From an uncultured Lachnospiraceae bacterium (GTDB taxonomy: Bacteria > Bacillota > Clostridia > Lachnospirales > Lachnospiraceae): 41,349 nucleotides of DNA. Location: positions 1 to 41,349 of the forward strand of contig CANOEC010000034.1 of the NCBI GenBank assembly GCA_947564735.1, given 5' to 3'. Below are positions 14,875-33,576 of the stretch, piece by piece. The position numbers were made by a program, and so were the translations under genes. Under the pieces are notes generated by a model that was not told the DNA's origin, ran no database searches, and worked only from the letters and a program-made list of their open reading frames with translations. Every line of letters begins with the position of its first letter. Position 1 is the stretch's first letter.

Positions 14875-16893
14875 ATGATTGAAAGCAGCAAAGTAAAGAA
14901 AATCTTATACGGCGGGGACTACAATCCCGAACAATGGGCTGAAGAAACATGGGAGGAGGACATGCGTCTGCTGAAGCTGGCACACATTGATATTGTCACC
15001 TTAAATGTCTTTAGCTGGGCATCCCTGCAGCCTTCTGAAGACGTCTATTGCTTCGACAAACTGGACAAAATCATGGATATGGTCACACGGCACGGCATGA
15101 AAATCTGTCTTGCCACGTCAACCGCTGCACACCCTGCATGGATGGCACGGAAATATCCCGATATTCTGAGGACAGAATTTAACGGTATGAAACGCAAATT
15201 TGGCAGCCGTCACAATTCCTGCCCGAACAGCCCGACCTACCGCAAATATTCCGTCGCACTTGCCACCCGGTTAGCCGAACGCTACAAATCTTATGATAAT
15301 ATTGTATCTTGGCATATCGCCAACGAATACGGTGGGGAATGCTACTGCGAGAATTGTGAAAGGGCGTTCCGCATATGGCTGCAAAACAAATACAAGACGA
15401 TTGACGCCGTCAACGAGGCATGGGACACTGCCTTCTGGGGTCATACTTTCTATGATTTTGAGGACATCGTGTTGCCGAACATGCTTTCCGAGCATTTTGA
15501 GGTCAACAGGACGACTTTTCAAGGCATTTCCTTAGACTACAGACGGTTTAATTCCGAGAGCATTCTTGACTGCTTCCGTCTGGAATATGACGCTGTCCAT
15601 GCCATTACGCCGGACATTCCGATTACCACGAATCTGATGGGCAATTACCAGCCGCTTGATTATCAGATGTGGGCAAAATACATGGATTTCATTTCATGGG
15701 ATAACTACCCGACGCACAATGCGACTTTGGAGGATACCGCTTTCAAGCACGATCTGATGCGGGGCATCAAGCAGGGCAAGCCCTTTGCCTTGATGGAACA
15801 GACGCCCAGCGTAACCAACTGGCATCCCTATAACGCCTTGAAACGTCCGGGCGTCATGCGTCTGTGGAGTTATCAGGCAGTGGCGCACGGAGCCGACACT
15901 GTCATGTTTTTCCAATTAAAAAGAAGCATCGGCGCATGTGAGAAATACCACGGCGCCGTTATTGACCATGCCGGTCATGAAAATACACGGGTTTTTCGTG
16001 AAATTACGCAGCTGGGCGCGGAACTTGACAAAATCGGTTCGCTCACGCTCGGCGCCAGAATGCATTCCAAGGCGGCCATCGTCTTTGACTGGGATAACTG
16101 GTGGGCAACCTACTATTCCGCAGGTCCCAGCGTAAATCTGCAATATTGCGATGAGATTCTGAATTACTACAAAGCGTTCAACAATTTAAATATCCCTGTA
16201 GACTTCATCAGCGTGGAAGACGATTTATCCGGCTACTCTTTCGTCGTTGCCCCGGTTCTGTATATGATAAAACCCGGCTATGACGAGAAAATCAGACAGT
16301 TTGTCAAAGACGGCGGACGGTTCTTAACCACGTTCTTCAGCGGTTATGTGGATGACCACGACCTTGTTACCATAGGCGGCTATCCGGGGAAACTGCGGGA
16401 TATCCTCGGCATCTGGGTGGAGGAAGAAGACGCCCTTCCCGATGAAGCATGTAACAGTTTCACCTACAAAAACGTTACTTACCCTGCCACCTTAATTTGT
16501 GATCTTCTACACTCCGAAACCGCACAGGCACTTTGCGCATATGAACAGGATTTCTATGCCGGAATGCCGGTGTTAACCCGGAATACTTTCGGCGAAGGCA
16601 CCGCCTATTATGTTGCGACGCGTTCCAGCGCGGATTTCTATCGTACTCTGGTGAATGAAATCTGTACGGAAGTCGGTATCCATCCCCTCATAGATACCCC
16701 CGACTTCATCGAAGTGACACAACGTACCAATGCAAACGGCACCTTTCTCTTCTTCTTAAACCATGATGAGAAGAGCCATGACGTTAAGCTAAACTGCGCC
16801 GGCACAAACATCCTCAATGATGTTTCCTATCATGACGGCGATACCTTGACGCTGCCTGCAAAGGATGTGGCAATCATACTCGTAGACGATTAA
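14875..16893 (+). CDS. GH42 beta-galactosidase (intracellular)
   Basis: A 672-aa retaining glycosidase without signal peptide. The N-terminal TIM barrel has acid/base Glu151 in WHIANEYGG and nucleophile Glu308 in LMEQTPS. Four zinc-site cysteines of the classic GH42 fold are present (Cys116 in RHNSCPNSP; 156, 158 and 161 in ECYCENC). The trimerisation domain (GYSFVVAPVLYMI, then GGRFLTTFFSGYVDDHD) and a short beta domain follow. It should remove terminal beta-galactosyl residues in the cytoplasm. In this locus that may be the Gal on xyloglucan side chains, although GH42 enzymes are better known on other linkages. ATG 14875 has GGAGGT upstream. First gene of GH42-GH29-regulator. Confidence 0.93.
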   Translation: MIESSKVKKILYGGDYNPEQWAEETWEEDMRLLKLAHIDIVTLNVFSWASLQPSEDVYCFDKLDKIMDMVTRHGMKICLATSTAAHPAWMARKYPDILRTEFNGMKRKFGSRHNSCPNSPTYRKYSVALATRLAERYKSYDNIVSWHIANEYGGECYCENCERAFRIWLQNKYKTIDAVNEAWDTAFWGHTFYDFEDIVLPNMLSEHFEVNRTTFQGISLDYRRFNSESILDCFRLEYDAVHAITPDIPITTNLMGNYQPLDYQMWAKYMDFISWDNYPTHNATLEDTAFKHDLMRGIKQGKPFALMEQTPSVTNWHPYNALKRPGVMRLWSYQAVAHGADTVMFFQLKRSIGACEKYHGAVIDHAGHENTRVFREITQLGAELDKIGSLTLGARMHSKAAIVFDWDNWWATYYSAGPSVNLQYCDEILNYYKAFNNLNIPVDFISVEDDLSGYSFVVAPVLYMIKPGYDEKIRQFVKDGGRFLTTFFSGYVDDHDLVTIGGYPGKLRDILGIWVEEEDALPDEACNSFTYKNVTYPATLICDLLHSETAQALCAYEQDFYAGMPVLTRNTFGEGTAYYVATRSSADFYRTLVNEICTEVGIHPLIDTPDFIEVTQRTNANGTFLFFLNHDEKSHDVKLNCAGTNILNDVSYHDGDTLTLPAKDVAIILVDD

Positions 16894-16940: not shown

Positions 16941-16953
16941 TATGGAGGTCATG

Positions 16954-18438
16954 ATGAAAATAACAGACAAATCACAATATCTTACACAAATTGACAACGT
17001 CATCTTGGCGGGGCCTTACCACGACGACTGGGCGTCTCTCACGGATTTCGAAATGCCTGCATGGTACGCTAAGGCAAAATTTGGAATTTTTGTCCACTGG
17101 GGGCTCTACAGTGTACCGGCATATGCCAATGAATGGTATTCCCGCAACATGTATATTCAAGGAACGCCCGAATATGAGCACCATATCAAAACTTACGGTC
17201 CGCACAAAGATTTTGGCTACAAGGATTTTATCCCCCTGTTTAGTGCCAAACGTTTTGACCCCGATTTCTGGGCGGAAACCTTCGCCAATGCCGGGGCGAA
17301 ATATGTTGTTCCCGTAGCGGAACATCACGACGGCTTCCAGATGTACAAAAGCGATTTGTCAATATATAATGCCGCACAGATGGGACCATGCCGGGATATT
17401 ATCGGTGACTTAAAGACTTCTTTTGAAAAAAAAGGATTGGTATTCTGTACCTCCACCCACCGCGCGGAGCACCACTGGTTTATGGGGAATGGCAAAGATT
17501 TCGACAGCGACATCAAGGAACCACTGCAATGCGGCGACTTCTACTGGCCTTCCGAACAGAAACAGCCAAATCATCAAGACTTGTTCGCCACCCCGTATCC
17601 GGACCGCGAATTTTTGGAAGACTGGCTGTGCCGCACATGCGAAATCATTGACCGCTATCAGCCAAAGATTCTCTATTTCGACTGGTGGATCCAGCATGAG
17701 GCATACAAACCTTATCTGCGAAAAATTGCGGCATACTACTATAACCGCGGTCTGGAATGGGGGCAGCCAGCCGCTATCTGCTATAAACATGACGCCATGG
17801 CTTTCGGAAGCGGAATCGTAGACGTGGAGCGCGGCAAATTTGCAGACGCAAAGCCTTATCACTGGCAGACGGACACCGCAATCGCACGTAATTCATGGTG
17901 CTATACCACTTCCTTGGATTATAAGAGCAGCTATGAATTGATATGCTATCTGATTGACGTCGTAAGTAAGAACGGCAATCTTCTGCTCAATGTCGGTCCG
18001 AAAGCAGACGGCACATTCGCCGAAGAAGACGCCTCTATTCTGCATGATATCGGCAACTGGCTTGCTGTAAACGGCGAGTCCGTCTACAACACAAAGCCAT
18101 GGCGTTATGCTGCTGAGGGGCCTACTCTGGAAACAGAGGGACAGTTCAGCGACGCCTCCGCCATCGTTTATACAAGTGAGGACTTCCGCTTTACCGCCGG
18201 AAACGGATGCATCTATGCCGCCTGCCTGAAATATCCGGCGGACGGCAGATTAACTATCCATGCCCTCTCCAAATCAAAGGATGCCAACAAACCCAATTTC
18301 CACGGCATCATCCGCGATGTGGAAATCCTCGGATTTGAAGAACATCCGGCTTATTCCATTGATGACGCCGGACTGCATCTGACAACGCAGAACGTACAAA
18401 GCAAATATCCCGTTGTGTTCAAGGTAATTGTTGAATAA
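16954..18438 (+). CDS. GH29 alpha-L-fucosidase (intracellular)
   Basis: A 494-aa retaining alpha-L-fucosidase. The catalytic barrel shows the GH29 signatures AKFGIFVHWGLYSVPA (about 41-56), VAEHHDGFQMY (121-131) and KILYFDWW, where Asp243 is the likely nucleophile. A C-terminal beta domain follows. No signal peptide, so it acts on imported oligosaccharides. In a xyloglucan scheme it would remove the terminal alpha-1,2 fucose, exposing galactose for the GH42. The acid/base is poorly conserved in this family and I do not assign it. GGAGG five bases before ATG 16954 sets the start; ATG 16951 is too close. It follows GH42 by 60 nt. Confidence 0.92.
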   Translation: MKITDKSQYLTQIDNVILAGPYHDDWASLTDFEMPAWYAKAKFGIFVHWGLYSVPAYANEWYSRNMYIQGTPEYEHHIKTYGPHKDFGYKDFIPLFSAKRFDPDFWAETFANAGAKYVVPVAEHHDGFQMYKSDLSIYNAAQMGPCRDIIGDLKTSFEKKGLVFCTSTHRAEHHWFMGNGKDFDSDIKEPLQCGDFYWPSEQKQPNHQDLFATPYPDREFLEDWLCRTCEIIDRYQPKILYFDWWIQHEAYKPYLRKIAAYYYNRGLEWGQPAAICYKHDAMAFGSGIVDVERGKFADAKPYHWQTDTAIARNSWCYTTSLDYKSSYELICYLIDVVSKNGNLLLNVGPKADGTFAEEDASILHDIGNWLAVNGESVYNTKPWRYAAEGPTLETEGQFSDASAIVYTSEDFRFTAGNGCIYAACLKYPADGRLTIHALSKSKDANKPNFHGIIRDVEILGFEEHPAYSIDDAGLHLTTQNVQSKYPVVFKVIVE

Positions 18439-18692: not shown

Positions 18693-20324
18693 ATGGCTGA
18701 AAACATGGCAACTATATTTATTGCCGATGATGAGGCTTCCATCAGGGAAGGCCTAAAATATATTATAGACTGGGAATCGCTGGGGTTTCGTCTATGCGGC
18801 GAAGCCTCCAACGGCGAAGATGCGCTCACACAGATTCTTGCCCTGCACCCCGACCTTGTGATGTTAGACGTCAGAATGCCAAGGATGCGGGGAACAGAAG
18901 TGATAAGGCTCGCCAGAGAATCCGGGTATCAAGGTAAATGTATTATTTTAAGTGGTTACTCGGATTTCCAATACGCACAGGAGGCAATCAAAAGCGGCGT
19001 CAGCTTCTATCTCACCAAACCGATTGATGAAGAAGAGCTTGCACATGCCGTCACACAAATCGGCGATGCGCTGTCCGAGGAAAAGAAACAATCCTCTCAT
19101 TTTACGGCATACCGCAACAAAGCAAAGCAGATTGTTCTATATGAATTATTGGCTGACAAGTTAAATCCCCCTCTTTCAGAGGCTGACTGCGCCCATTTTC
19201 GTTTAGATGCGGAGTCCTATCAGGTTGTAATCTGTGAAGACTTTCACACCCAGTCTGCTGCCGCTCCGTATACCTTTGCCGAGCTGCTCAAGGTAACCAA
19301 CAAAGATAACAGCATTTTTGAACATGTGGAGATAGACGGGCGGGATGTCGTCCTGTTAAAAGGCAGTCTCGGTCTGAATCGTCTCGCCGATTTTCTGGAA
19401 CGGTTTGAAGAAAAGACCTTTCAGACCGGAAGTCCTTTGGAATCCATGTTCCTGACCTACGGCAGACCTGTCCGTTTACCGGAAGAGATTCATTTATCAT
19501 ATGAGGATGCGGATGCGCTCCTGCACCGCCGTTTCTTCTGTTCGCAGGACCAGCATGCAATGGGATATGACATGTTACCAGACGTTTCCGACACAGAGCT
19601 TTCCACATCCCGGCATGAGCCGATGCGGCTGAGTGAAGATGCGCTCCAAAATTACAGTGTACAATTTATCAATTATATTCAATCGTATAATCGTAATATG
19701 ATAGCGGACGCTTTGTCAAAGCTGGAGATTTCACTCTCGCATTCGCCAAAGCCAATCAGTGAGATCAAACTCTTCCTGACGGATTTATACTTGCAGATAA
19801 AAAGCGAAATCAAGAGAAACTATGTTTCCATAGAGATTCCCTTTGCTACGAATTCTGCTGCCATCAAATTCATCAGCGGCAGGAACTATCTCTATGAAAT
19901 CACAGTTTTTCTTTCAGAGCAGTTTGACAGTATCATGAACGCAATCGGCAATCCTTCCAGAGATACGGTACTAGACGACGTCTTGTACTATATCGACCAT
20001 CATTTCCGCGATAATATCAAGCTGGAAACCATTGCGCCGCTTTTTGGCTATAGCAGCGCTTATCTTGGCAAAATATTTACGAAATCTGCTGGAGAAAGCT
20101 TCAACTCTTATATTGACCACAAACGCATAGAGTATTCCAAACAGTTGTTGGTGGAAAACAATTTGAAAGTGTACGAGATTGCAGAGCAGGTCGGCTATAA
20201 GAATGTGGACTATTTCCATAAAAAATTTAAGAAATATGTGGGCATCAGTCCTGCGGAGTTCCGCAAAGGACAAGAAGTGGAAACGACAGAGAAAAAATAC
20301 CCCCCCCCACAAAAAAATGACTAA
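18693..20324 (+). CDS. YesN-type response regulator with AraC DNA-binding domain
   Basis: A 543-aa two-component regulator. The receiver domain (1-120) has the acidic pocket ADDE, phospho-acceptor Asp59 in LVMLDVRMP, Ser87 in ILSGYSD and Lys109 in YLTKP. A long middle region is of unknown fold. The C-terminal AraC HTH (about 430-530) includes IAPLFGYSSAYLGKIFTKSAGESFNSYI and IAEQVGYKNVDYFHKKFKKYVGISPAEFR. It probably activates the glycan genes; its partner kinase is likely the one at 24304-26121. The C-terminal tail is encoded across C9 and A7 tracts (20299-20316 region). GGGAG upstream supports ATG 18693 over a TTG at 18669. Confidence 0.93.
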   Translation: MAENMATIFIADDEASIREGLKYIIDWESLGFRLCGEASNGEDALTQILALHPDLVMLDVRMPRMRGTEVIRLARESGYQGKCIILSGYSDFQYAQEAIKSGVSFYLTKPIDEEELAHAVTQIGDALSEEKKQSSHFTAYRNKAKQIVLYELLADKLNPPLSEADCAHFRLDAESYQVVICEDFHTQSAAAPYTFAELLKVTNKDNSIFEHVEIDGRDVVLLKGSLGLNRLADFLERFEEKTFQTGSPLESMFLTYGRPVRLPEEIHLSYEDADALLHRRFFCSQDQHAMGYDMLPDVSDTELSTSRHEPMRLSEDALQNYSVQFINYIQSYNRNMIADALSKLEISLSHSPKPISEIKLFLTDLYLQIKSEIKRNYVSIEIPFATNSAAIKFISGRNYLYEITVFLSEQFDSIMNAIGNPSRDTVLDDVLYYIDHHFRDNIKLETIAPLFGYSSAYLGKIFTKSAGESFNSYIDHKRIEYSKQLLVENNLKVYEIAEQVGYKNVDYFHKKFKKYVGISPAEFRKGQEVETTEKKYPPPQKND

Positions 20325-20434: not shown

Positions 20435-22171
20435 TTACTGTACAATTGCAACTTTCTCAGCAATAATATTTGTCATCATCTCTTCAGCTTCGTTCATGCC
20501 AGTTGCTTCCAGTTCAGCAATCATTGCGTCGTAGTTTGCATCAAATTCAGCCTCAGTACCTGTTACACATTTAATCAATGCGGACCAAGCCACCTCGTCA
20601 AGCTTATCTACGATTTCACTAAATTCAAGCGGCATTGCATATGCCCAAAGCGGAGAATAATCAGGTGTTTCAAACTCATCAGGCTGCGGGAATACATCAA
20701 CAAGCAGTTCTACGCCCCATGCTTCACATGCTGCCTTCTCTTCTTCATTGTACTCGTTAATTACTGCATCCTTACTTGTCGTCGTATACGTGCTGCCTGT
20801 AGGATCTAAGATACCATCGCCATAAGACGGGAACGGATAGTTGTGGAAACCTACGCCTGTCTTCTTGGAGTAATCTGCATCTTCTTGAGAGTACTTGATT
20901 TCTTCTTCTGTTCTATAACGATGTCCCTCATCGTCAATAAAATAGTTCACACCTTCGATACCCCATTTATTGAGTACCTGACCTTCATCGGAGCAAAGGA
21001 AGTCGATAAACTTGATTGCTGCAACGGGATCTTTACAAGTAGTTGTGATACCAACACCAGTACCGGTTGTCAGACCCTGATACATAAGGGACGGACACTT
21101 TGTATCCGGTGTCATACCTGTCGGCAGACCACAGTATGTAAGACCATACTTGCCATCAGCCTTCAATACTTTCTCACCATCCTGATAATCCCAGTCCTTA
21201 TCAAACAGACATACAACACGTCCGGATGCAATCTTAGCAATGTAGTCTTCATGTGTCTGTGTTGCAAATTCAGGGTCAAGGATGCCTTCGTTGTACATAC
21301 GGCACATCCATTTGAAGTACTCTCTTTCCTTCTCGGAACGGAATTTGTATACACCCTTGTTGTCTTCCGTTACAATCCACTGTCCGTTATCCGGTGCACC
21401 ATCTGCAATAAATCCAGCCGGGTTACCAAGTGTAATCAGCCAGTGCCAGTCTGAAGTGGATAACGTGATACCAATCTTGTCAAGACCGTCATCCGTCGTC
21501 GGATTTTCAGCGATATAATCTTTAATCATCGTTTCCAGTTCTTCCAAAGACTCTGGAATCTTGTAGTCTTTAGCCTTCAGCGCATCCCACTGAATCTGAA
21601 CGTTACCGCAGTCCTTAAACTTCGTTCCGCCTACTACATATGCGGACAGCTGATAGATGGACGGATCATCTGCGGACTGTTTTAATTTCTCAAACTCCTC
21701 GCCATAGAGTTTCTTGATGTTAGGACCATACTGTTCAATCAGGTCTGTCATATCAATCATGGCACCCGCGTCAATCATGTTACCCGCAGAACCTTTTGCA
21801 AAAATGATATCCGGATAATTCTGCTCTGCAATCATCAGTGCAACCGCTTCGCTCTCATCGTTACCGCCGACAGGACGCGTTGTCTTTAATTTCACGCCGG
21901 TCGCCGCCGTAATTGCTTCTGCAACGGGGTCGGTCCAAGGATCATCCTGATTTGCATCTGCGTTAAAGAATGTCAATTCAATCACTTCACCCGACGCTGC
22001 GCTGCCTGTATCGCTGCTGCCACCATCGTCAGCCGCTGCGCTTCCGCCGTCGTCTGTTGTTGCGCTGCCTGTATCCGCAGCAGGGGCGTCGCTTCCGCCG
22101 CCACAGCCGGCAAGTGTACCGGCTACCATTGTCACTGCCAGTAACAATGCACAAATTTTTTTGTTTTTCAT
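20435..22171 (-). CDS. Sugar ABC transporter solute-binding lipoprotein
   Basis: A 578-aa extracellular binding protein of the large family paired with LplB/YtcP permeases (LplA/YtcQ type). A lipoprotein signal with lipobox LAGC puts Cys at residue 23; a Ser/Asp/Gly/Ala-rich linker runs to about 65. The cluster-type fold shows typical phrases (IIFAKGSAGNMIDAGAMIDMTDLIEQYGPN; FLCSDEGQVLNKWGIEG). Large binding proteins of this type take oligosaccharides; I infer xyloglucan oligosaccharides from the neighbours. It is last in the transporter order permease-permease-binding protein. No ATPase gene is present, so it would depend on a shared MsmK-like ATPase encoded elsewhere. Confidence 0.92.
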   Translation of the reverse strand: MKNKKICALLLAVTMVAGTLAGCGGGSDAPAADTGSATTDDGGSAAADDGGSSDTGSAASGEVIELTFFNADANQDDPWTDPVAEAITAATGVKLKTTRPVGGNDESEAVALMIAEQNYPDIIFAKGSAGNMIDAGAMIDMTDLIEQYGPNIKKLYGEEFEKLKQSADDPSIYQLSAYVVGGTKFKDCGNVQIQWDALKAKDYKIPESLEELETMIKDYIAENPTTDDGLDKIGITLSTSDWHWLITLGNPAGFIADGAPDNGQWIVTEDNKGVYKFRSEKEREYFKWMCRMYNEGILDPEFATQTHEDYIAKIASGRVVCLFDKDWDYQDGEKVLKADGKYGLTYCGLPTGMTPDTKCPSLMYQGLTTGTGVGITTTCKDPVAAIKFIDFLCSDEGQVLNKWGIEGVNYFIDDEGHRYRTEEEIKYSQEDADYSKKTGVGFHNYPFPSYGDGILDPTGSTYTTTSKDAVINEYNEEEKAACEAWGVELLVDVFPQPDEFETPDYSPLWAYAMPLEFSEIVDKLDEVAWSALIKCVTGTEAEFDANYDAMIAELEATGMNEAEEMMTNIIAEKVAIVQ

Positions 22172-22259: not shown

Positions 22260-23147
22260 TCAGTCTTTGACCGCGCCGACCGTCATACCGCCTACGAAAT
22301 ATTTCTGTAAGAACGGATATACGATGATAATCGGTACTGTCGCTACGATTGTTACCGCCATTCGCACGGAAAGCGGTGACACGGCATTCTTCAGCTGTTC
22401 CGCTGCGTGAGGATCAATCTTTACCGTCGCCTTCTCCATGATTTCGTACAATACATACTGCAGGGTCGGCAGTTCCTTCGCATACAGATAGGTATCCATG
22501 AAGGAGTTCCACTGTCCTACCGCATAGAACAAGGCTACCGTTGCCAGAACCGGCTTACACAGAGGCAGTACAATCTTTGCCCATATGACAAAATCGTTTG
22601 CGCCGTCCACTCTCGCCGCCTCCTGCAATGCAATCGGAAGCCCTTCGATAAAGGAGCGCACCAGTATCATATTGTAGACCCAGATTAGTCCCGGAATAAT
22701 ATAAACAAGGAAATTGTTACCCATCTTCAAGGTTCTCATTAAAAGCAGGTATTCCGGAATCAGTCCGCCGCTGACATACATCGTAATAACAAACAAAGTT
22801 GTAAATAATTTATTGAAATAAAAATCTTTTCTGCTGAGCACATAGGCAAGCATTGCCGTACAAATCACACCTGCTCCCGCACCTATCACAGTCCTTAATA
22901 TCGATAGGAGAAATGCCTTGCCTAAGTTATTCTCCGTAAACACATAAACATAATTGCTCCATGTGAACTTTCTCGGAATGATGAAGTTAATGTTACGCAT
23001 CGTATCAATCGGGTCATTCAATGAAATCGCCAACACATTTAAGAACGGATATATCGTAATAATAATCAAGAATATGAAAACCACCAATAATATGTAATCC
23101 AATATATTATCACGGCTTTTAATTCTGTTACTCTTTACATTCGCCAT
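22260..23147 (-). CDS. ABC sugar permease, YtcP/AraQ-like (CUT1)
   Basis: A 295-aa inner-membrane permease. Six hydrophobic segments are visible, starting with ILDYILLVVFIFLIIITIYPFLNVLAI. The conserved EAA loop, which contacts the ATPase, reads LQEAARVDGANDFVIWAKIVLP. The C-terminus GGMTVGAVKD is typical of YtcP proteins. Start ATG 23147 is eight bases after AAGGAGG, which overlaps the stop of the first permease. A longer frame upstream has no such site. It forms a heterodimer with the product of 23161-24102. Confidence 0.93.
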   Translation of the reverse strand: MANVKSNRIKSRDNILDYILLVVFIFLIIITIYPFLNVLAISLNDPIDTMRNINFIIPRKFTWSNYVYVFTENNLGKAFLLSILRTVIGAGAGVICTAMLAYVLSRKDFYFNKLFTTLFVITMYVSGGLIPEYLLLMRTLKMGNNFLVYIIPGLIWVYNMILVRSFIEGLPIALQEAARVDGANDFVIWAKIVLPLCKPVLATVALFYAVGQWNSFMDTYLYAKELPTLQYVLYEIMEKATVKIDPHAAEQLKNAVSPLSVRMAVTIVATVPIIIVYPFLQKYFVGGMTVGAVKD

Positions 23148-23160: not shown

Positions 23161-24102
23161 TTATACCAGTTTGCTCTCGCCGAGTAAGCCTGCCACTTTA
23201 TTCGCAATGAAAAGCAGCGTAATGCCGACTAGCGACTGGAACATGCCGATTGCGGTACCTAAACCATAGTTGCTGTTTCCGATACCTCTGATATAAGCAA
23301 ACCATGAAAGAACCATCGCATGATCCTGAACGATACCATTGCTGAGAAGCATCTGACGCTCCATACCTACATTCAATGCGCCGCCAATACCCATAATCAG
23401 AAGAACAACAATCGTCGGCTTAATGCCCGGCAATGTAATATGCCAGATTCTCTGAAGGCGATTGGCGCCATCCACCTTCGCCGCCTCATACAAGCCTTGA
23501 TCAATTCCTGCCATAGCAGAGAGATATACGATGGCATCCCATCCTACCTCTTTCCATGTATTAATCAGAACAACCGTAAACCAGAACAACGGCGAGTTGG
23601 TACTCATGAGTCCCAGCTTTGTACCAAACAACGTGTCAAGCATACCACCGTCATTTAGCACCATCTTCGCAATACTGGCGATAACCACCCATGATACAAA
23701 GTGAGGCAGATAAGAAATCGTCTGTGTGATTTTCTTAAATTTCACAAAACGGATTTCATTGAGCATCAAGGCAAACAGAATTGCCATAATCGTACCGATT
23801 GCAATTCCCAAGATGCTTAAGCCAATCGTATTAATCAATGTCTGTGTAAAGATACGATCTTGAAACGCTTTGACAAAGTTATCAAATCCCGCAAACGGTC
23901 TCTGCCAGATTGGGAGCGTCATTGTCTTTGGCTTCACTTCTTGAAACGCCATCGTCCATCCCCATAATGGAATGTACTTGAAGACAATCAGCCAGACAAC
24001 AAACGGAAGTGACATCAATAGCAGATATCGCTGCTTCCACATGAGCTGTCCGCTAAATTTCTGTTTTACAACTTTTTCTTTCGGAGCTTTTCTTCCACTC
24101 AT
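23161..24102 (-). CDS. ABC sugar permease, LplB-like (CUT1)
   Basis: A 313-aa partner permease. N-terminal text WKQRYLLLMSLPFVVWLIVFKYIPLWGW is characteristic of LplB. The EAA loop is LYEAAKVDGANRLQRIWHITLPGI, and six membrane segments are expected. It is first of the transporter trio, and its stop overlaps the ribosome site of the next gene. AAAGGATG precedes the ATG. A terminator lies between it and the histidine kinase gene, so the transporter genes may have their own promoter in 24103-24195. Confidence 0.94.
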   Translation of the reverse strand: MSGRKAPKEKVVKQKFSGQLMWKQRYLLLMSLPFVVWLIVFKYIPLWGWTMAFQEVKPKTMTLPIWQRPFAGFDNFVKAFQDRIFTQTLINTIGLSILGIAIGTIMAILFALMLNEIRFVKFKKITQTISYLPHFVSWVVIASIAKMVLNDGGMLDTLFGTKLGLMSTNSPLFWFTVVLINTWKEVGWDAIVYLSAMAGIDQGLYEAAKVDGANRLQRIWHITLPGIKPTIVVLLIMGIGGALNVGMERQMLLSNGIVQDHAMVLSWFAYIRGIGNSNYGLGTAIGMFQSLVGITLLFIANKVAGLLGESKLV

Positions 24103-24303: not shown

Positions 24304-26121
24304 TTACAGTCCGTCCTGCATAATCTGGTCTATTGGGAGCAAAAGTCTGACTCTTGTGCCTATCTGCGGTTCGGAATACACATGAATCCGGTATCCGTCC
24401 CCGAAATGCAGCTTCATCCGCTGGTTAATATTATACAGCCCAATACTCTTATTCCTGCTCATATCCCTTATCTCGATATCATTACGCAGCTGATTCAATG
24501 TTTCCTCGGTCATGCCACATCCATTATCATCAATATCAATTATAAGAAGGTTCATGTTGTCCGATGTCTTCCTGCGGACAGACACAATGATCGTACCCGC
24601 CTCGTCCCTATCCTCAAGCCCATGTACAATCGCGTTTTCCACCACCGGCTGTAACAATAGCGGCGGCAGATAATACCGCGAAAGGTCAAGCCCTTCCTCT
24701 ATCTCTTTACGATACCGAATCCGGTCTCCGAACCGCAGATGCTGTATAGCAATATACTCATCCACATGATTCAACTCTTCTTCTAACGTCGTCATTGCCG
24801 TTCCCATGTTCTCCAACACATATCGCATGGACTTCCCTAAAAGCTTAATCGCTGTCGCCGCCTCTTTGTCCCCTGCCTTGAGCGCTTTCATACGAATCGT
24901 TTCCAGCGTATTGTAGAGAAAATGCGGATTAATCTGACTGGCAAGCATCTTAAATTCTATTTCCTGCTGGCTGATAAGCAGTTCCTGCTCCTTAAGCTGG
25001 GCTTCGTATGCCCTCGCTTCCTGCTCTTTGATATTCTGCACCATGACCTGCAAATCCGCAAATGCCTCCGACAACTCGTCATTGCCTTGGAATGTGGAAA
25101 TCAACTCATAATCCTGATTGCTTGCTTTGTGCATCTCCTCCCTTAACACATTCACCCTGCCTGCAAACTGCTTCGTGAAGAAATGTATCATAATCCCCGG
25201 AATAACCAGATTCAGCGCAATGATGATAGCGCACAGCCCTAAAACATTTTTCATGCTCTCATACCCCTGCCCGTCAAGTGTGCACACATAGATGCAGGAA
25301 TCAGACTGATACATATAAAAGGTAGAAATATTCAGCAGATATCTTTTCCCATCCATCTCCATCTGTCCCGTATACTGAAAGGACGGCTCCTCAAAGTCCA
25401 CCGGCAGAGGCTGCGCCTTTCCATAGCGTCTTCTGTCGGAACTATAGAAAACGGGTCCCTTGTCCACCGACATGGTACAGATATATTCATCGCTGTCCAC
25501 GCGAAGCCGCATATCATTTTCATCAAGATGAATCACAAGCACCGCATGATACGGCGAATTGATAAGCTGGATGGACCTTACCAGACACAAGCTCCAATAC
25601 TCATCGTTATACCCGTATTCCCACGGGATTGCCCGCCAATGGACGCCGGGATTTGATACGGCGTCCTGATACCATACCGTATCCATAATCTCCTCGTCCA
25701 CCCGGACAAACTGTTTGTAATCGGATATGGTCGGATTATCCGTATAAATCTCGATGGCGCTGTACTCGGCATAATTTTTTGCACATTGCTCCAACAATAC
25801 ATTGCTGTCCACAGCCGCCATGTAGTCCCTTTTCGTTTCAAAATCCCTCGTCAGGATATCGCGGATTCCCAAATCAAACGCAATGTCTTTGGAAACATTA
25901 TAGGTATCCGTTGTCAGCTCAAACAGAAAATTCCTCACACGATGGTTCTCCGACTGCAGTAAATCCATATAGTAATCAATCATGACGCGCCCCGTGTACA
26001 TCATCAGAAACGTGCCAAGCAAGAGCATGGGCACCACAATCACAGCCGTATAAATCAAGTATAGCTGTCGTTTGATGGGTGCCCTATGAAAAATGGATAT
26101 AAATCGCGACTTTTTACTCAT
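24304..26121 (-). CDS. YesM-type membrane sensor histidine kinase
   Basis: A 605-aa kinase. Membrane segment 1 is at about residues 20-42, an extracellular sensor domain of about 240 residues follows, then membrane segment 2 at about 288-312, a HAMP-like linker and a coiled coil. The kinase core (His_kinase type) has its phospho-His in QINPHFLYNTLETIRM. The ATPase part has N-box VVENAIVHGLED, G1 IDIDDNGCGM and GLYNINQRMKLHFG. It likely senses extracellular oligosaccharide alone or with the binding protein, and phosphorylates the YesN-type regulator at 18693-20324. Its ATG overlaps the GH31 stop by 8 nt (ATGAGTAA), showing translational coupling to the glycosidase. Confidence 0.94.
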   Translation of the reverse strand: MSKKSRFISIFHRAPIKRQLYLIYTAVIVVPMLLLGTFLMMYTGRVMIDYYMDLLQSENHRVRNFLFELTTDTYNVSKDIAFDLGIRDILTRDFETKRDYMAAVDSNVLLEQCAKNYAEYSAIEIYTDNPTISDYKQFVRVDEEIMDTVWYQDAVSNPGVHWRAIPWEYGYNDEYWSLCLVRSIQLINSPYHAVLVIHLDENDMRLRVDSDEYICTMSVDKGPVFYSSDRRRYGKAQPLPVDFEEPSFQYTGQMEMDGKRYLLNISTFYMYQSDSCIYVCTLDGQGYESMKNVLGLCAIIIALNLVIPGIMIHFFTKQFAGRVNVLREEMHKASNQDYELISTFQGNDELSEAFADLQVMVQNIKEQEARAYEAQLKEQELLISQQEIEFKMLASQINPHFLYNTLETIRMKALKAGDKEAATAIKLLGKSMRYVLENMGTAMTTLEEELNHVDEYIAIQHLRFGDRIRYRKEIEEGLDLSRYYLPPLLLQPVVENAIVHGLEDRDEAGTIIVSVRRKTSDNMNLLIIDIDDNGCGMTEETLNQLRNDIEIRDMSRNKSIGLYNINQRMKLHFGDGYRIHVYSEPQIGTRVRLLLPIDQIMQDGL

Positions 26122-28183
26122 AGATATCGTATTGTTTTCCTTCTCTAATCATCACCGGAATCACGTCAAGCGGCGCCGGAACCGTTATCGTCTGTCCGCC
26201 TTCATACTCTTTCTTGGTATAGGCATCCGTCCACTTACAGCCTGCCGGCAGATAGATTTCTCTTTCTCTTTGTCCTTCTTCCATTACCGGCGCTACTAAC
26301 AAATCGGGACCGAACATGTATGCATCTTCCGCCTCCCAGCATACCTTATCTTCCGGGAAGTCATAAAACATCGGACGCATCACAGGCGCACCGGACGCCG
26401 ACGCCTCTCTCATACATGCTCTGATATAGGGACGGAGCCTTTCTCTTATGAAAAGATATTTTGACAAAATCTGATAATTGTCCTCTCCGAAGCTCCACAC
26501 TTCATTGTCCTGTCCGCTTGTCAGCTGCCGCACCCCGTTGATAAACTCCTGCTGCCTCTCATACCATGGAGAACGCTCTCCATGCATACGGAATACCGGA
26601 CAGAATGCACCCCATGCAAACCAGCGCACCAGCAGTTCTTTAAAATGCTCATCCCTGATGTCACCGCCAAGAAATCCACCGATATCAGACGTCCACCATG
26701 GAATGCCCGCTATGCCCATGCTCAACCCCGCCTGCAGCTGCTCCCGCATAGAACGGAATGAGGAATGGATATCTCCCGACCATGTGAGCACACCGTATTT
26801 CTGGCTGCCTGCCCATGCACACCGCACAAGACTCATAATATCCGTTTCGCCCTCAGCACGCAGACCCTCATAAAACCCTTTGGCATACCCTACCGGATAG
26901 CGGTTAGAGCACTGTAATGCAGTGCCTTCATAATAACGGTAATTGTCAAAGTCATAGGGACCGTATTCCGGCTCCGCCTCGTCTAACCAGAAGCAGCGGA
27001 TTCCCTTCTTATAATAATTCTCCCTACAGCGCTCCCACACATACTTCTGCGCGCCGGGATGCGTCGCATCATAGAAAATCGTATTCCCCATCCATGTCAT
27101 GTGATTGGCGTTTCCTCTGTCGGCGCTCACAAGATAACCGTTCTCCGCCATCGGTCCGAAGTTCTCGCTCCGCTCGTCAATGGTAGGCCACACAGATACT
27201 ACCGTCTCGATTCCCATCTCTTTTAATTCCCGCACCATTGCCTCCGGGTCTTGCCAGTCTCTCGGCTCAAACTTGAAGTCTCCCTGCATTGTCCAGTGGA
27301 AAAAGTCCACGACAATCGCATCCATAGGAAGTCCCCTTCTCTTGTGTTCCCTTGCCACGGCGAGGATTTCTTCCTGATTGCGGTAACGCAACTTGCACTG
27401 CCAGTACCCCATCCCGTACTCCGGCATCATCGGCGTTCTCCCCGTCGCTTTAGAGTACTGTGCCTCTATCTGTGCCGGCGTGTCACCTGCGGTAATGAAA
27501 TAATCCAGTTTTTTCGTGCTGACTGCAGACCACTCCGTCTTGTTGACGCCGAACACTGCCGTTCCAATCGCCGGATTATTCCAGAGAAAGCCGTACCCTC
27601 TGCTGGAAATCATGAAGGGAACGCTCGCCTGCGAATTGCGGTGTGCCAACTCCAATATCGCACCCTTTTTATTCAGATGCTTCTCCTGATACTGCCCCAT
27701 GCCGAAAATCTTCTCATCATCAAACGCTTCAAAACGCGCCGTCAGCGAATAATCCGTGCTGCCCGGAACAGGTTTTAACTCTCTGGCATCAATGCGCAGC
27801 GGCACACAATATCTGTTGATACGGTTCCTGTTGCGCCAATACTCCTCCGTCAGCAGTTCTCCCCTCTGGTTATAGAAGCTGATCCAGCCCTCATGGGAAA
27901 CCTTCGCCGTGATTTTACCGTTGACAAGCTTCGCCTGTGTCCCTGTCTGATGGTACTTCGCATATTCCTCCGACCGATACCACGGGTCCGTCACATCTAT
28001 CTTCTCAAAATCAATTTGCACCTCCGTCTCTTCGACCGGCTCCGACAACGCCCAGTCATTGGCATCCATGCACGCTTCTTTTGTCATACGTACCCGCAGG
28101 GAATTGACGCCCCAAGGCTCGATAATGACGCGTGACGTCCCGTCCAAAATAAGCAGCTTGTTTCCGTCCTGTTCTAAATGCAT
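26114..28183 (-). CDS. GH31 alpha-glycosidase, probable alpha-xylosidase (non-YicI subtype)
   Basis: A 689-aa cytoplasmic GH31. The nucleophile is Asp401 in RCFWLDEAEPEYG and the acid/base Asp471 in LTWSGD. The phrase WLDEAEPE is typical of the Xyl31A-like alpha-xylosidases acting on xyloglucan oligosaccharides and differs from the YicI type. There is no signal peptide and no extra carbohydrate-binding insert such as PA14. The start at 28183 has GAGG seven bases upstream; the longer open frame runs into the GH74 3-prime end and is not used. It lies between GH74 and the sensor kinase and overlaps the kinase gene. Expected to remove alpha-1,6 xylose from the non-reducing end; the exact substrate is inferred from context. 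Confidence 0.9.
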   Translation of the reverse strand: MHLEQDGNKLLILDGTSRVIIEPWGVNSLRVRMTKEACMDANDWALSEPVEETEVQIDFEKIDVTDPWYRSEEYAKYHQTGTQAKLVNGKITAKVSHEGWISFYNQRGELLTEEYWRNRNRINRYCVPLRIDARELKPVPGSTDYSLTARFEAFDDEKIFGMGQYQEKHLNKKGAILELAHRNSQASVPFMISSRGYGFLWNNPAIGTAVFGVNKTEWSAVSTKKLDYFITAGDTPAQIEAQYSKATGRTPMMPEYGMGYWQCKLRYRNQEEILAVAREHKRRGLPMDAIVVDFFHWTMQGDFKFEPRDWQDPEAMVRELKEMGIETVVSVWPTIDERSENFGPMAENGYLVSADRGNANHMTWMGNTIFYDATHPGAQKYVWERCRENYYKKGIRCFWLDEAEPEYGPYDFDNYRYYEGTALQCSNRYPVGYAKGFYEGLRAEGETDIMSLVRCAWAGSQKYGVLTWSGDIHSSFRSMREQLQAGLSMGIAGIPWWTSDIGGFLGGDIRDEHFKELLVRWFAWGAFCPVFRMHGERSPWYERQQEFINGVRQLTSGQDNEVWSFGEDNYQILSKYLFIRERLRPYIRACMREASASGAPVMRPMFYDFPEDKVCWEAEDAYMFGPDLLVAPVMEEGQREREIYLPAGCKWTDAYTKKEYEGGQTITVPAPLDVIPVMIREGKQYDIYE

Positions 28184-28276: not shown

Positions 28277-28380
28277 GTGTGAGAAAGATTTGCCAAAGGC
28301 AAATCGTAGTGTTTCCAAGTCAGCTATGCTGACTTTGCGATACAGCCTCTGCTGCGAGTGGTTAGAAACACTTCTCACAC
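28277..28380 (-). repeat. Nested hairpin structure built from the 3-prime end of GH74
   Basis: The 16 nt at 28365-28380 encode the last GH74 codons (CEKCF, then stop). Their inverted copy occurs at 28277-28285 plus 28309-28315, interrupted by 23 nt (28286-28308) that themselves carry GATTTGCC-AAA-GGCAAATC. A further hairpin, AAGTCAGC-TAT-GCTGACTT (28317-28335), lies in the loop. No T-run follows. It may slow 3-prime decay of GH74 mRNA or partly terminate. Confidence 0.7.
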
Positions 28381-30764
28381 TGCTCTCCATACAACACCCC
28401 TCTGCTGCCGGTGGCAAGATAAAATCTGCCGTATACCCTGCTGTCACCTTCCACGCTGTTAATCTCTCCGTACATCTGCCTGTCCGTATTTAAGCGCACA
28501 AACGACTTTCCGTCATCCTCCGACCGATAGAACCCGTACACGCCGTCAATCACTGCCGCCGCATAGATTGCTTTGTTCTCCTTACAATAATCACCGCCCG
28601 GACGAAGAACCCCCAGTCCCATCCTATAGAAAATATCGCCGTCCTTGCTCAGTCTGACCGCACGGATTCCATCCGGCTTACCTTCCTTCCCCACTGCGCC
28701 GGCGTCATACCTAAACTTCCAGAGTCCGTGCGCGTCAAGCGCCATGTAAAACACGCCCTGCCGCCCATTTTCACCCCGCACCTCAATCTTGCTGGCACAG
28801 TCAATCAATGCAAAATCCACCTTAGGAAAATCCGCCGGCATCCTGCACTGCCTAAAAGACAGTCCGCCGTCCGTACTGATATAACACTGCGACGCTTCCC
28901 CGAACCCGTAGAAAAGACTACTGTCCACACGGTCGGCAAACACTTTCATGCCGCCCTGCGTAACCCGCTCCCCTGCCAGATCATAAACCTGTGCCTGCAC
29001 GAAATGCGCTCCGCCGTCCGCACTTGTCACCACCCTGCTGATTGGAAGACGGATGCCTTCCGCCACCGACCAGACAATCCTGCGGCAGTCCGGCGATAAC
29101 GCCACCCATCCGCTGTTTACATTGGGCGTCTCTATCCGGTGAAAGGCTTCGTCCAGTTCCTCCGTAATACCGTACGGTAAAGGCAGCCTGCGGAATGTCC
29201 GGCACTGGTCTTCTGATAGGATAAGCCCGCCCTTCGTCATGCCTTTCCAGTTACCCCTAGGCGTCACCACGACAACATCCGGATTTTCATCGGAATAATC
29301 CGCATTGATGCAGGTGATATACCGGTTGCCCTCCGCATCGTCAAAGGAATTGTCACAGGGTCTGTCAAGCTGTCTAAAGGCAAAACCGCCCAAATCCCCC
29401 AGAATGTCTATCACCTTCACCTCTCCCGCCGGCGGACTGTACAGATTCAAATGTACCGTCTCCTCCAAGCCGTCGCACCAGTCGCTAAAAACAACTTCCT
29501 TCCCCGTTAGGTTTCTTGTGCGGAACACTCCTGTCCCTGTGTTAAACCATGCCTCGTCCTCGTCAAAAGGATTTATTTTCAAATCTGACAGCCAATGGAT
29601 AATCGAGTGTCCACCGTTATAACACGGCTTCATATAGGAAGTGCGAAACTCCATCCTGCCCTTGTCTAAATCATACAAAATTTCTTCCCACGTCTGCCCG
29701 TAATCATAAGAGCGATAGATGCTGTCGCCATCCTCCTTGCAGATTGTGGAACAGACGATAAGCCCCTGTCTCGTCGCTACCGCGCTGACGCCGCTGAAAC
29801 CATACTCGTGACCGTAATCCTCACAGGATGCGGGACTACCTTCCGCGCCGCCCGCTCCATTTTCTTCACATTGTCCGCTCACTATGCCCGGCGTTATTTC
29901 CTCACCCTGTCCAAAGCGCGTACCATTTTCCGTCCGAAGCAGCGGATATCTGACGACTCTGCCGCCGATGACGCTGCCGCCGTCGCAACTGTATCCCAGT
30001 TCATACACATATGCATTTCTGCCCATCACGGAATAGGTCACATAGAGATACTTCTCATCCATGGCATATCTCTGCGCCACCAGACCTGCCAGCCTGACAC
30101 CCTCTATCTCCCCGTCCTTGGGCTGCCACATCTTCTCAAATGTAACGCCGCCGTCATAAGATACATACAAGCTGTGTCCCCGCAGACGCCCGCTCCGCTT
30201 CACAGATGCACCCGCACAGCCCACAAGTAATGCCGTACCATCCTCGCTCTGCCCCGTAAACGTCAGATAGTTCTCCGCAAAAGCCTTATTTCGCTCCCAC
30301 GAAGCGCCTCGATCCAAGCTATGCCATAATCCCGCATCCTGCGAAGCAAACCAGAGTCCGTCGCCACTGCTCTTATCAACAATCAGGCGGTATCCCGTGC
30401 CCCGTCCGTTCAGATTGCCATGAACATGCATTGGCATCTCATAATATCTGAAGGTCTCCCCGTAATCCTCAGACACCGCCAGCTTCCCATGCGGGGAAGC
30501 ATTGACGCCGCAGGCGATATAAAGCCGTTCCGGGTAGTTGTCATCCAGCGCTGCCGCCGTCGGAAATGTCTCGCTCAAATCTTCCATTGTCACATGGTCT
30601 GTCAGACTTTTCCATTCCTGTGTCTCTGCTTCAAAACGGTACATGCCGCCAATATCCGTTCTGATATACAATATATCCTTTTTCTTCGGATGATAAATAA
30701 ATCCTGTCACATAACCGCCGCCGGGAATCGGAAGATTACGGTATCTATACTGCTGTGTCTGCAT
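28362..30764 (-). CDS. GH74 xyloglucanase-family protein, without signal peptide
   Basis: An 800-aa double seven-bladed propeller. The N-terminus IPGGGYVTGFIYHPKKKDILYIRTDIGGMYRFE is the GH74 signature, with catalytic Asp37 in RTDIGG. The second catalytic Asp457 is in IDILGDLGGF, the spacing of known GH74 enzymes (about Asp35 and Asp465). Many BNR-like turns (SEDYGETF, SLDRGASW, SYDYGQTW, STDGGLSF) mark the blades. GH74 enzymes cut the beta-1,4-glucan backbone of xyloglucan and are normally secreted. This one has no export signal, so it should process imported oligosaccharides. Start ATG 30764 has GAGGG six bases upstream. First gene of GH74-GH31-kinase, divergent from the second GH31. Confidence 0.9.
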   Translation of the reverse strand: MQTQQYRYRNLPIPGGGYVTGFIYHPKKKDILYIRTDIGGMYRFEAETQEWKSLTDHVTMEDLSETFPTAAALDDNYPERLYIACGVNASPHGKLAVSEDYGETFRYYEMPMHVHGNLNGRGTGYRLIVDKSSGDGLWFASQDAGLWHSLDRGASWERNKAFAENYLTFTGQSEDGTALLVGCAGASVKRSGRLRGHSLYVSYDGGVTFEKMWQPKDGEIEGVRLAGLVAQRYAMDEKYLYVTYSVMGRNAYVYELGYSCDGGSVIGGRVVRYPLLRTENGTRFGQGEEITPGIVSGQCEENGAGGAEGSPASCEDYGHEYGFSGVSAVATRQGLIVCSTICKEDGDSIYRSYDYGQTWEEILYDLDKGRMEFRTSYMKPCYNGGHSIIHWLSDLKINPFDEDEAWFNTGTGVFRTRNLTGKEVVFSDWCDGLEETVHLNLYSPPAGEVKVIDILGDLGGFAFRQLDRPCDNSFDDAEGNRYITCINADYSDENPDVVVVTPRGNWKGMTKGGLILSEDQCRTFRRLPLPYGITEELDEAFHRIETPNVNSGWVALSPDCRRIVWSVAEGIRLPISRVVTSADGGAHFVQAQVYDLAGERVTQGGMKVFADRVDSSLFYGFGEASQCYISTDGGLSFRQCRMPADFPKVDFALIDCASKIEVRGENGRQGVFYMALDAHGLWKFRYDAGAVGKEGKPDGIRAVRLSKDGDIFYRMGLGVLRPGGDYCKENKAIYAAAVIDGVYGFYRSEDDGKSFVRLNTDRQMYGEINSVEGDSRVYGRFYLATGSRGVLYGEQCEKCF

Positions 30765-30780
30765 AATTGTCCCTCGTTTG

Positions 30781-31227: not shown

Positions 31228-33576
31228 ATGAAATTCAACAACGGCTGCTGGCTATTTAAGGAAGGATGCGCATGTTTTACTCCAAGCGAAGTTTACTACA
31301 CGACTATCAAAGACACGGAGGTGACGTTGTGTACGCCAACCCACCCAATCAGAGAACGCGGTGACACGTTAGGCGGAGTCAACCTCACAATCCGTATCTC
31401 TTCTCCTATGCCCGATGTGCTCAGAGTACAGACTTACCACCACATGGGTACGATAGAGAAAACGCCTTCCTTTGAACTAAATCTAAACCAGCCGCAGTCT
31501 TTGCAGGTAGAAGATACAAATGATACCCTTACGATTACAAGCGGCAGCTTATCACTCGTCATCACCAAAAACCCTTGGTCGATGACGTATATGAGCGGCA
31601 ATAAAGTGCTCACCAAGAGCAGCAGACGGGATCTTGCCCTGATGAAAACAGATTATAAGGGCGACTGTTACGAGCTAAACGGTGACCTCGAAAACACCTA
31701 CATGCGCGAACAGCTAAGTATCGGCGTCGGCGAACTGCTCTATGGTACGGGCGAACGCTTTACTCCTTTTGTCAAAAATGGACAGACTGTCGAGATTTAT
31801 AATGAAGACGGCGGCACCAGCACCGAGCAGGCATATAAGAATATTCCTTTTTATCTTTCCAACAAAGGGTACGGCGTTTTAGTCAATCATCCGGAGCGCG
31901 TTTCCTTTGAGTTCGGCACCGAAAATGTAACCAAAGCCGCTTTCAGCGTGGAGGGCGGAAGTCTGGACTATTTCTTCTTTAACGGACCTTCCATGAAGGA
32001 TGTACTGACGCGCTACACCGACTTGTCCGGCAAGCCTACGCTGCCTGCGCCTTGGACTTTCGGCTTATGGCTGTCCACCTCTTTTACAACCAATTATGAC
32101 GAAGAGACGGTTATGAGCTTCATCGACGGCATGTTAGACCGTGGCATTCCGCTTCGCACCTTCCATTTTGACTGCTTCTGGATGAAAGGCTTCCACTGGA
32201 CCGATTTTGTGTGGGATGAGGAAGTGTTCCCCGACCCTGCCGGACTGCTCTCCAGAATCAAGGCAAAGGGCTTAAATATCTGCGTGTGGATTAACCCCTA
32301 TATCGGACAGGAGTCCATACTTTTTGCAGAAGGTATGGAAAAGGGCTATTTCATCAAACGCCCGAACGGGGACGTATGGCAGTGGGATATGTGGCAGCCG
32401 GGCATGGCTCTGGTAGACTTCACCAACCCCGATGCATGTAAATGGTATCAAGACAAGCTGGCAGCCCTGCTTGATATGGGCGTGGACTGCTTCAAGACGG
32501 ATTTCGGCGAGAGAATCCCTGTCAACTGTGTCTACCATGACGGTTCCGACCCGAAGAAGATGCATAACTTCTATACCTATCTGTACAACAAAGTGGTATT
32601 TGAATTATTGGAAGAAAAGCGCGGCAAAGGCGAAGCCGTACTGTTTGCCCGTTCCGCAACGGTAGGCGGACAAAAGTTCCCCGTACACTGGGGCGGCGAC
32701 TGCTGGTCCGACTATGAATCCATGGAAGAAAGCCTGCGCGGCGGTCTTTCCTTACTCATGTCAGGATTCGGCTTCTGGGCACACGATATCGGCGGCTTCG
32801 AGCACACCTCCACCGCGGATGTATATAAGCGCTGGGTTGCTTTCGGTCTTTTGTCTTCCCACAGCCGTCTGCACGGAAGCCAGTCCTACCGTGTGCCGTG
32901 GTTATATGATGAAGAAGCGGTTGACGTTGTCAGAACGTTTACCCGCCTAAAGGCAACTCTGATGCCGTACCTGTATAAAACCTCCATCGACACTTCCCGC
33001 TCCGGCGTGCCGACCATGCGTAGTATGGTACTGGAATTTACGGAAGATAGGAATTGCAGCTATCTGGATAAGCAGTATATGCTGGGCGACAACTTGTTAG
33101 TTGCTCCCATCTTCAACGAAGAAAGCATCGGTTCTTTCTATCTGCCGAAGGGCACATGGACAGACTTCTTTACCGGCGAGACTGTGGAAGGCGGTACATG
33201 GGTGGAGAAAGAATATGACTATCTGCATCTGCCGCTGATGGCACGTGCCAATTCCATCGTGGCTATCGGCGCATGTGATGAAAAACCGGACTACGATTAT
33301 GCTGACGGCGCGCAGCTGCGCGTATATGCATTAACAGACGGCATCAAGGCTAAGACCACCGTTTACGGTATGGCACAGAATGCAGAATTAAATGTTTCCG
33401 TTCTCAAAGACGGTACAAAAATTACGATTCAGACAGAGAATATTGGCAAAAAACCGTACACCGTAAGGCTTGTAAATGTACAGGCGGTCTCTGCGGACGG
33501 CGCTTCTATGGAAGTAATCGGAAATGATACGCTACTGACCCCGAACACGGAAACGGTGGTTGTCAGTATTGCTTAA
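31228..33576 (+). CDS. yicI: GH31 alpha-xylosidase, YicI type
   Basis: A 782-aa enzyme very close to E. coli YicI in text and length. Examples are GERFTPFVKNGQTVEIYNEDGG, DCFWMKGFHWTDFVWD and ARSATVGGQKFPVHWGGD. The nucleophile is Asp425 in CFKTDFGERIP and the acid/base Asp491 in HWGGD. It releases alpha-1,6-linked xylose from isoprimeverose-like and xyloglucan oligosaccharide ends in the cytoplasm. Substrate residues of YicI around the barrel (Cys-Phe in FDCFWMK, Trp in CVWINPYIGQ) are kept. AGGAGG lies seven bases before the ATG. It is transcribed alone, divergent from GH74, with a strong terminator after it. Confidence 0.96.
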   Translation: MKFNNGCWLFKEGCACFTPSEVYYTTIKDTEVTLCTPTHPIRERGDTLGGVNLTIRISSPMPDVLRVQTYHHMGTIEKTPSFELNLNQPQSLQVEDTNDTLTITSGSLSLVITKNPWSMTYMSGNKVLTKSSRRDLALMKTDYKGDCYELNGDLENTYMREQLSIGVGELLYGTGERFTPFVKNGQTVEIYNEDGGTSTEQAYKNIPFYLSNKGYGVLVNHPERVSFEFGTENVTKAAFSVEGGSLDYFFFNGPSMKDVLTRYTDLSGKPTLPAPWTFGLWLSTSFTTNYDEETVMSFIDGMLDRGIPLRTFHFDCFWMKGFHWTDFVWDEEVFPDPAGLLSRIKAKGLNICVWINPYIGQESILFAEGMEKGYFIKRPNGDVWQWDMWQPGMALVDFTNPDACKWYQDKLAALLDMGVDCFKTDFGERIPVNCVYHDGSDPKKMHNFYTYLYNKVVFELLEEKRGKGEAVLFARSATVGGQKFPVHWGGDCWSDYESMEESLRGGLSLLMSGFGFWAHDIGGFEHTSTADVYKRWVAFGLLSSHSRLHGSQSYRVPWLYDEEAVDVVRTFTRLKATLMPYLYKTSIDTSRSGVPTMRSMVLEFTEDRNCSYLDKQYMLGDNLLVAPIFNEESIGSFYLPKGTWTDFFTGETVEGGTWVEKEYDYLHLPLMARANSIVAIGACDEKPDYDYADGAQLRVYALTDGIKAKTTVYGMAQNAELNVSVLKDGTKITIQTENIGKKPYTVRLVNVQAVSADGASMEVIGNDTLLTPNTETVVVSIA

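Follow-up and report, generated by a model that had tools for sequence, protein, structure and literature searches.

A Lachnospiraceae gene cluster predicted to import and dismantle xyloglucan oligosaccharides contains a GH74 protein without a signal peptide

Gene layout and genomic setting of the cluster

The window analyzed here is one whole contig of 41,349 bases from a Lachnospiraceae genome (G000) of 4.52 Mb. On its plus strand, a run of three genes encodes a GH42 β-galactosidase family protein (14875..16893; Pfam PF02449, 506.3 bits), a GH29 protein of the α-L-fucosidase family, or an α-L-galactosidase (16954..18438; PF01120, 323.3 bits), and a YesN/AraC-type response regulator (18693..20324; Response_reg and HTH_18). 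The minus-strand run, in which intergenic gaps do not exceed 201 bases, comprises genes for a GH74 protein (28362..30764), a GH31 α-xylosidase of the MeXyl31 type (26114..28183; PF01055, 263.2 bits), a YesM-type sensor histidine kinase (24304..26121; His_kinase and HATPase_c), permeases 1 and 2 of an ABC importer (23161..24102 and 22260..23147; both BPD_transp_1), and a solute-binding lipoprotein (SBP; 20435..22171; SBP_bac_1); the kinase start overlaps the stop of the GH31 gene. A second GH31 gene, of the YicI type (31228..33576, plus strand), is divergent from the GH74 gene, with 463 bases between them. An earlier note had described GH42, GH29, two GH31, and GH74 genes grouped with an ABC importer and a YesM/YesN pair, and Pfam, NCBIfam, and solved relatives confirm this grouping.

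Several starts given by the longest open reading frames appear too long. For GH42, we, like the earlier note, prefer 14875 over 14818 because GGAGG precedes the ATG; a ribosome-binding site likewise supports 23147 for the second permease. Likelier starts for the others are 16951 or 16954 (GH29), 28183 or 28195 (MeXyl31-type GH31), 30764 (GH74), and 18693 or 18705 (regulator), those of GH74 and GH31 also being backed by relatives. When the likelier starts were used, a signal peptide was recognizable in none of the five GH proteins, as had been claimed: the highest N-terminal 12-residue Kyte-Doolittle mean, which served here in place of a dedicated signal-peptide program, was 0.79 to 1.60, compared with 2.78 in the SBP.

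Pfam detected neither an ABC ATPase gene between 13434 and 33576 nor a GH3 β-glucosidase among the genes of this region, and Rfam at the gathering threshold gave 0 matches in the whole window. The description of the locus as complete is not supported: the importer ATPase lies outside the cluster, the glucose-chain step is encoded elsewhere, and L-fucose isomerase (PF07881) was not found in G000, although it is present in 4 of the 21 genomes searched. A backbone β-glucosidase is indeed missing from the cluster, as the earlier note observed, but not from the genome, in which 11 GH3 matches and 9 GH94 stretches in 5 reading frames rule out the absence of any backbone-finishing enzyme. Further, Pfam classes both of the weak GH5 matches in G000 as GH53, whereas the remaining 20 genomes of the GH5 search all had a match at E = 2.4e-29 or lower. 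The best GH9 of G000 (L120:1453-3198) has no signal peptide and may be a second, cytoplasmic enzyme of the backbone type; another, weaker GH9 has a lipoprotein-like N terminus, which rules out the absence of any secreted endoglucanase. This endoglucanase content, as judged from GH5 and GH9, suggests that the cell may depend mostly on fragments released by other organisms.

Beside the GH42 gene, the minus strand encodes a serine hydrolase of the β-lactamase fold (13434..14741; PF00144), possibly an accessory esterase whose membership in the cluster is uncertain. A 43% identical protein in a related locus (L040) sits close to a GH31-GH74 pair; a β-lactamase-like homologue in L041 was left uncounted, as it appeared in a single-linkage comparison but not in a second one, in which the open reading frame caller took an overlapping frame. 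At the right end of the contig, a PLD-like protein (37404-38633; weak, below the Pfam cut-off) adjoins an Eco57I-type methylase (38659-40899), and the two are a possible restriction-modification pair.

Ligand of the importer and the side-chain enzymes

The best solved relative of the SBP in a phmmer search was 9PMY (E = 1.9e-92), which is Athe_2052 of Anaerocellum bescii, a protein that binds XXXG with a Kd of 14 nM (PMC12710961, a preprint). The two proteins are identical at 179 of 502 aligned residues (36%). We mapped the Athe_2052 numbering onto the window SBP with an offset of 15, and all 25 residues checked carried the expected letter. The SBP retains the groove tryptophans Trp-226, Trp-311, and Trp-494, the reducing-end cap Asn-234, and Lys-111; Tyr-109 is replaced by phenylalanine, and Glu-56 and Asn-436 are replaced by aspartic acid. 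Gln-88, Ile-162, and Asp-167 are not retained, and two of these, Gln-88 and Asp-167, contact xylose in the docking model of Athe_2052 (PMC12710961). The glucan groove thus appears conserved, with differences at some residues predicted by docking to touch xylose, which may reflect differently decorated oligosaccharides or a different ligand. The importer is assigned to the xyloglucan-oligosaccharide type by homology to Athe_2052.

The YicI-type GH31 is an equivalog match to NCBIfam PRK10658, scoring 1227.5 bits against a cut-off of 606, twice the required score. The second GH31 reached 262.1 bits with the same model, below the cut-off, and is closest by phmmer to the α-xylosidase MeXyl31 (5zn6; E = 8.5e-259). 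In a search of 20 genomes, 4 contained a match to this MeXyl31-type GH31, at 80-81% in G421 and G541, in which it adjoins GH74, and at 49-52% in G345 and G533. The SBP, as the strongest evidence, together with the YicI equivalog, the MeXyl31-like GH31, and the GH74 relatives, points to import of xyloglucan oligosaccharides and their breakdown in the cytoplasm, and we consider it very probable that the cluster handles such oligosaccharides. In this respect, the earlier proposal of fucogalactoxyloglucan utilization is supported in part; that the side chains are fucosylated we infer with a slight preference.

The nearest solved relative of the window GH29 is BpGH29 (7snk/7ljj; 402 bits), followed by the fucosidases 9lxl (224 bits) and 4ni3 (220 bits). 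Xyloglucan may carry L-galactose instead of L-fucose, and GH29 could, although this seems unlikely to us, be an α-L-galactosidase or act on another L-sugar, in which case the side chain would not be fucose. The lead of BpGH29 over the next match, a fucosidase, fits this possibility, as BpGH29 is an exo-α-L-galactosidase (PMC12316285; review PMC10154630), and so does the failure to find L-fucose isomerase in G000; yet BpGH29 is merely a distant relative, and many fucosidases also belong to GH29 (PMC10154630). For GH42, the nearest solved structure is 3tts (E = 1.1e-271). The earlier note regarded the use of GH42 for galactose as a different solution from that of known systems; however, a cytoplasmic GH42 acting on xyloglucan oligosaccharides is already known from Ruminiclostridium cellulolyticum (PMC4780118), which rules out GH42 as the source of novelty, and GH42 has also been proposed to act in A. 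bescii (PMC12710961).

We also considered that the GH42-GH29 pair is an independent module, directed at host mucin or at Fuc-Gal glycans of the milk type, and is a neighbor of a xyloglucan importer by position only. The Roseburia locus Ros-1, which contains GH29, GH42, ABC importer, and histidine kinase genes, has been assigned to O-linked mucus glycans (PMC5320581). Among the 8 loci with GH42 relatives of at least 58% (the window and L057-L063), GH29 is adjacent in 5; the GH42-GH29 pairs of L058, L061, and L063 have no GH74 beside them, and those of L058 and L063 occur with other, 23%-similar SBPs. Because this pairing was looked at only in genomes preselected for GH74, it is no independent test of linkage. 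GH42 is not adjacent to GH74 in L003 or L004, and, within the genus of the window, G370 gave no GH42 match at E ≤ 1e-60 and the best match in G060 was 39%. On the other hand, the next gene after the pair in the window, on the same strand, encodes the regulator and is adjacent to the xyloglucan-type importer; the SBP, permeases, kinase, regulator, and GH29 occur together, away from GH74, in G060 and G370, and regulator and GH29 are neighbors in L002. In G349 (L057), genes for GH42, SBP, YesM, YesN, and a YicI-type GH31 fragment lie within one 20-kb stretch. Both gene sets are united in G096, in which GH74, GH31, a CotH-kinase protein, GH43, GH5 (with a lipoprotein-like N terminus), GH94, GH29, GH42, and a kinase form one same-strand run of ~19 kb, the clearest sign that GH74, GH31, GH29, GH42, and the others work together. 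We therefore regard a separate mucin or milk module as very unlikely.

A GH74 clade without signal peptides

By Pfam, the window GH74 is a BNR/Sortilin-type propeller protein, and its solved relatives are GH74 xyloglucanases, including the oligoxyloglucan reducing-end-specific cellobiohydrolase 1sqj. The homology covers two propellers with both conserved aspartic acids (Asp-53 and Asp-535 of the long open reading frame). Named near relatives are from three metagenome-assembled genomes labeled Lachnospiraceae, Butyrivibrio, and Clostridiales. In the family sample, a GH74 match (E ≤ 1e-20) was found in 21 of 397 genomes, 19 of which carry the clade of the window (counting G333, in which the N terminus lies beyond the contig end); G047 and G345 contain the secreted kind only and G166 contains both. 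Matches were also present in 8 of 295 genomes of the order sample, which contributed G421, G541, G442, and G609 to the clade, and in 25 of 391 genomes of the class sample, which contributed G759, G937, and G918, with short fragments in G667 and G783 assigned to neither kind.

The presence of a signal peptide follows identity to the window GH74. Proteins with at least 35.8% identity and a visible N terminus had none, whereas those with 33.5% or less had one each; three high hydrophobicity values in the signal-less group were judged by eye (L033, 1.93, arising from an upstream extension of the reading frame; L078, 1.77, a fragment; and L103, 1.70). In a maximum-likelihood tree of 41 sequences, drawn with a midpoint root and excluding L046, L099, L050, and some other fragments, the 27 proteins without signal peptides were separated from the 14 with them by one branch supported at 100/100; long branches were flagged for L048, L091, and L103. 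The first conserved aspartic acid is present in all 27 signal-less proteins and the second in 26. A tryptophan pair, which corresponds to Trp-341-Trp-342 linked to processivity in R. cellulolyticum Xgh74A (PMC4780118), occurs in 0 of the 27 compared with 13 of the 14 secreted proteins. Similarly, the segment before the HW/GW motif that holds the exo blocking loop has 26-27 residues in the clade and 37-50 in 13 of the 14 secreted proteins, the exception being L091 with 16. The combination of a tryptophan pair with a long segment or blocking loop expected of exo- or endo-processive xyloglucanases is thus not seen in the clade. Conversely, a loop near residues 260-289, with a YSCD-like motif, is longer in the clade (24-35 residues versus 7-18), and Arg-519, Asn-521, Trp-522, and His-454 are the same in all 27 clade proteins and differ from the commonest letters of the secreted ones; RGNW and EETVH motifs are likewise invariant in the clade.

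These features point to a distinct, probably non-processive enzyme, and this signal-less GH74, which the earlier note had not singled out, is the unusual part of the locus. That GH74 cuts the backbone in the cytoplasm seems to us somewhat more likely than not. The broader proposal, that the clade is an undescribed, permanently cytoplasmic GH74 subfamily with a remodeled cleft that cuts imported xyloglucan oligosaccharides, appears to us evenly balanced. The bacterial GH74 enzymes described in PMC12710961 and PMC4780118 are secreted or cellulosomal xyloglucanases, and we found no report of a cytoplasmic GH74 in open-licence PubMed Central papers. Spread of the clade by plasmids was rejected: 16 plasmid records matched, all below 60% identity, and the 10 listed, at 25.4-29.8%, are not members of the clade. 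Both kinds of GH74 are encoded on one contig of G166 (L047, on G166:C19), the secreted one, of 1042 amino acids, lying ~5.7 kb from the member of the non-secreted clade. In G442, the GH74 at L099:9059-11448, which stands beside a GH31, is itself split over two reading frames, either a broken gene or a sequence error.

The MeXyl31-type GH31 directly adjoins the clade GH74 in 13 of 29 loci, which span several families (the window, L002, L003, L004, L032, L033, L037, L040, L041, L042, L097, L098, and L099). No neighboring GH31 was found in the other 16, in 3 of which GH74 is at a contig end (L031, L046, and L047). Genes for the YicI-type GH31 and GH74 are arranged divergently in 4 of the 29 loci (the window, L002, L003, and L004), and the recurrence of the order YicI-type GH31, GH74, GH31 in L002-L004 indicates that the grouping is not due to chance. 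In L002, the order extends to YicI-GH74-GH31-kinase-permease-permease-SBP-regulator-GH29, the GH29 being represented by its C-terminal 103 residues (80% identity) where the fetched stretch ends.

Proposed pathway and comparison with known systems

The closest known system is the R. cellulolyticum cluster Ccel_2451-2458 (Gal42A, XygS/XygR, Glu3A, Xyl31A, and an ABC importer). There, the GH42 enzyme Gal42A turns galactosylated four-glucose oligosaccharides into XXXG, and its gene lies with those for GH31, GH3, a two-component system, and an ABC importer (PMC4780118). The window shares with it GH42 and GH31 enzymes without signal sequences, a two-component system with an AraC-type regulator, and an adjacent importer with two permeases and an SBP (PMC4780118, PMC8576529). 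It differs in the lack of GH3 in the cluster and in the presence of a signal-less GH74, a second GH31, and GH29; in R. cellulolyticum, the backbone is trimmed by GH31 and GH3, the GH74 is cellulosomal and exo-processive (PMC4780118), and the putative fucosidases are GH95 enzymes encoded elsewhere (PMC4780118, PMC8576529). The A. bescii locus Athe_2052-2054 has the same type of SBP and a GH31, with GH42 and a fucosidase proposed, but its GH74 is part of the secreted CelF (GH74-CBM3-CBM3-GH48) (PMC12710961), whereas that of the window is a single-domain protein without a signal peptide, beside an importer operon. Roseburia Ros-1, also from Lachnospiraceae, resembles the window in its GH29, GH42, ABC importer, and histidine kinase but is listed without GH31 or GH74, and R. 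intestinalis strains are reported to have GH74 yet not to grow on xyloglucan (PMC5320581). The Xanthomonas XyGUL also combines GH74, GH31, and debranching enzymes in one locus but is from a Gram-negative bacterium, relies on TonB-dependent uptake, and uses GH35 and GH95 for side chains (PMC8245568).

We propose, with a probability of roughly 0.7 for the whole pathway excluding the fucose step, that this two-component-regulated cluster imports xyloglucan oligosaccharides and dismantles them in the cytoplasm. Neighbors, or the GH9 of the cell itself that bears a signal, would produce fragments outside; the SBP would capture these, and the importer would take them up with the help of an ATPase whose gene lies elsewhere. 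GH29 would then remove L-fucose (or L-galactose), followed by GH42, which would remove D-galactose; GH74 would cut the xylosylated glucan backbone inside the cell, either splitting oligosaccharides that exceed one repeat in length or breaking up the four-glucose repeat itself; both GH31 enzymes would remove xylose from the non-reducing ends so formed; and the glucose chain would be finished by GH3 or GH94 enzymes whose genes are located outside the cluster. GH74 would thereby supplement or replace the alternating GH31/GH3 trimming known from R. cellulolyticum.

The pathway could instead simply be that of R. cellulolyticum, with GH31 and a GH3 encoded elsewhere trimming stepwise and GH74 tidying rare long fragments or acting on another β-glucan. 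GH42, GH31, and GH3 are all that the R. cellulolyticum cytoplasm needs for XGO4 (PMC4780118, PMC8576529), the genome of the window offers its 11 GH3 matches, and the cleft motifs of the clade differ from those of secreted GH74s. We consider this improbable, however, given that GH3 is absent from the cluster and that the GH74-GH31 adjacency is kept across several families. Backbone cutting by GH74 thus remains our preferred reading, and the cluster is a well-supported variant of the R. cellulolyticum kind whose interest would lie in the GH74 clade and its α-xylosidase partner, not in GH42. If so, a conserved signal-less GH74, often beside an α-xylosidase, would be a further type of enzyme in the selfish use of xyloglucan by Lachnospirales, those with the clade importing xyloglucan pieces whole and cutting the backbone out of the reach of competitors. 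For annotation, taking GH74 gene counts as a sign of extracellular xyloglucan degradation would mislabel possible fragment feeders as primary degraders.

Other genes beside non-secreted GH74 genes were noted. Two proteins without a Pfam match (L101:6932-8659, 575 amino acids, and L102:83-1627, 514 amino acids; from two genomes of family f65) are encoded directly upstream of GH74 and are possible unknown glycosidases; the former has no convincing solved relative and has a YicI-type GH31 and importer genes alongside. Esterase-like genes of the SASA type (L042:872-2455) and GDSL/CE2-like type (L043:11412-12509) encode proteins that could remove acetyl groups from xyloglucan. Finally, in G370, a GH5 of 381 amino acids with a hydrophilic-looking N terminus (L032:7546-8691) is encoded next to the GH74-GH31 pair on the opposite strand.
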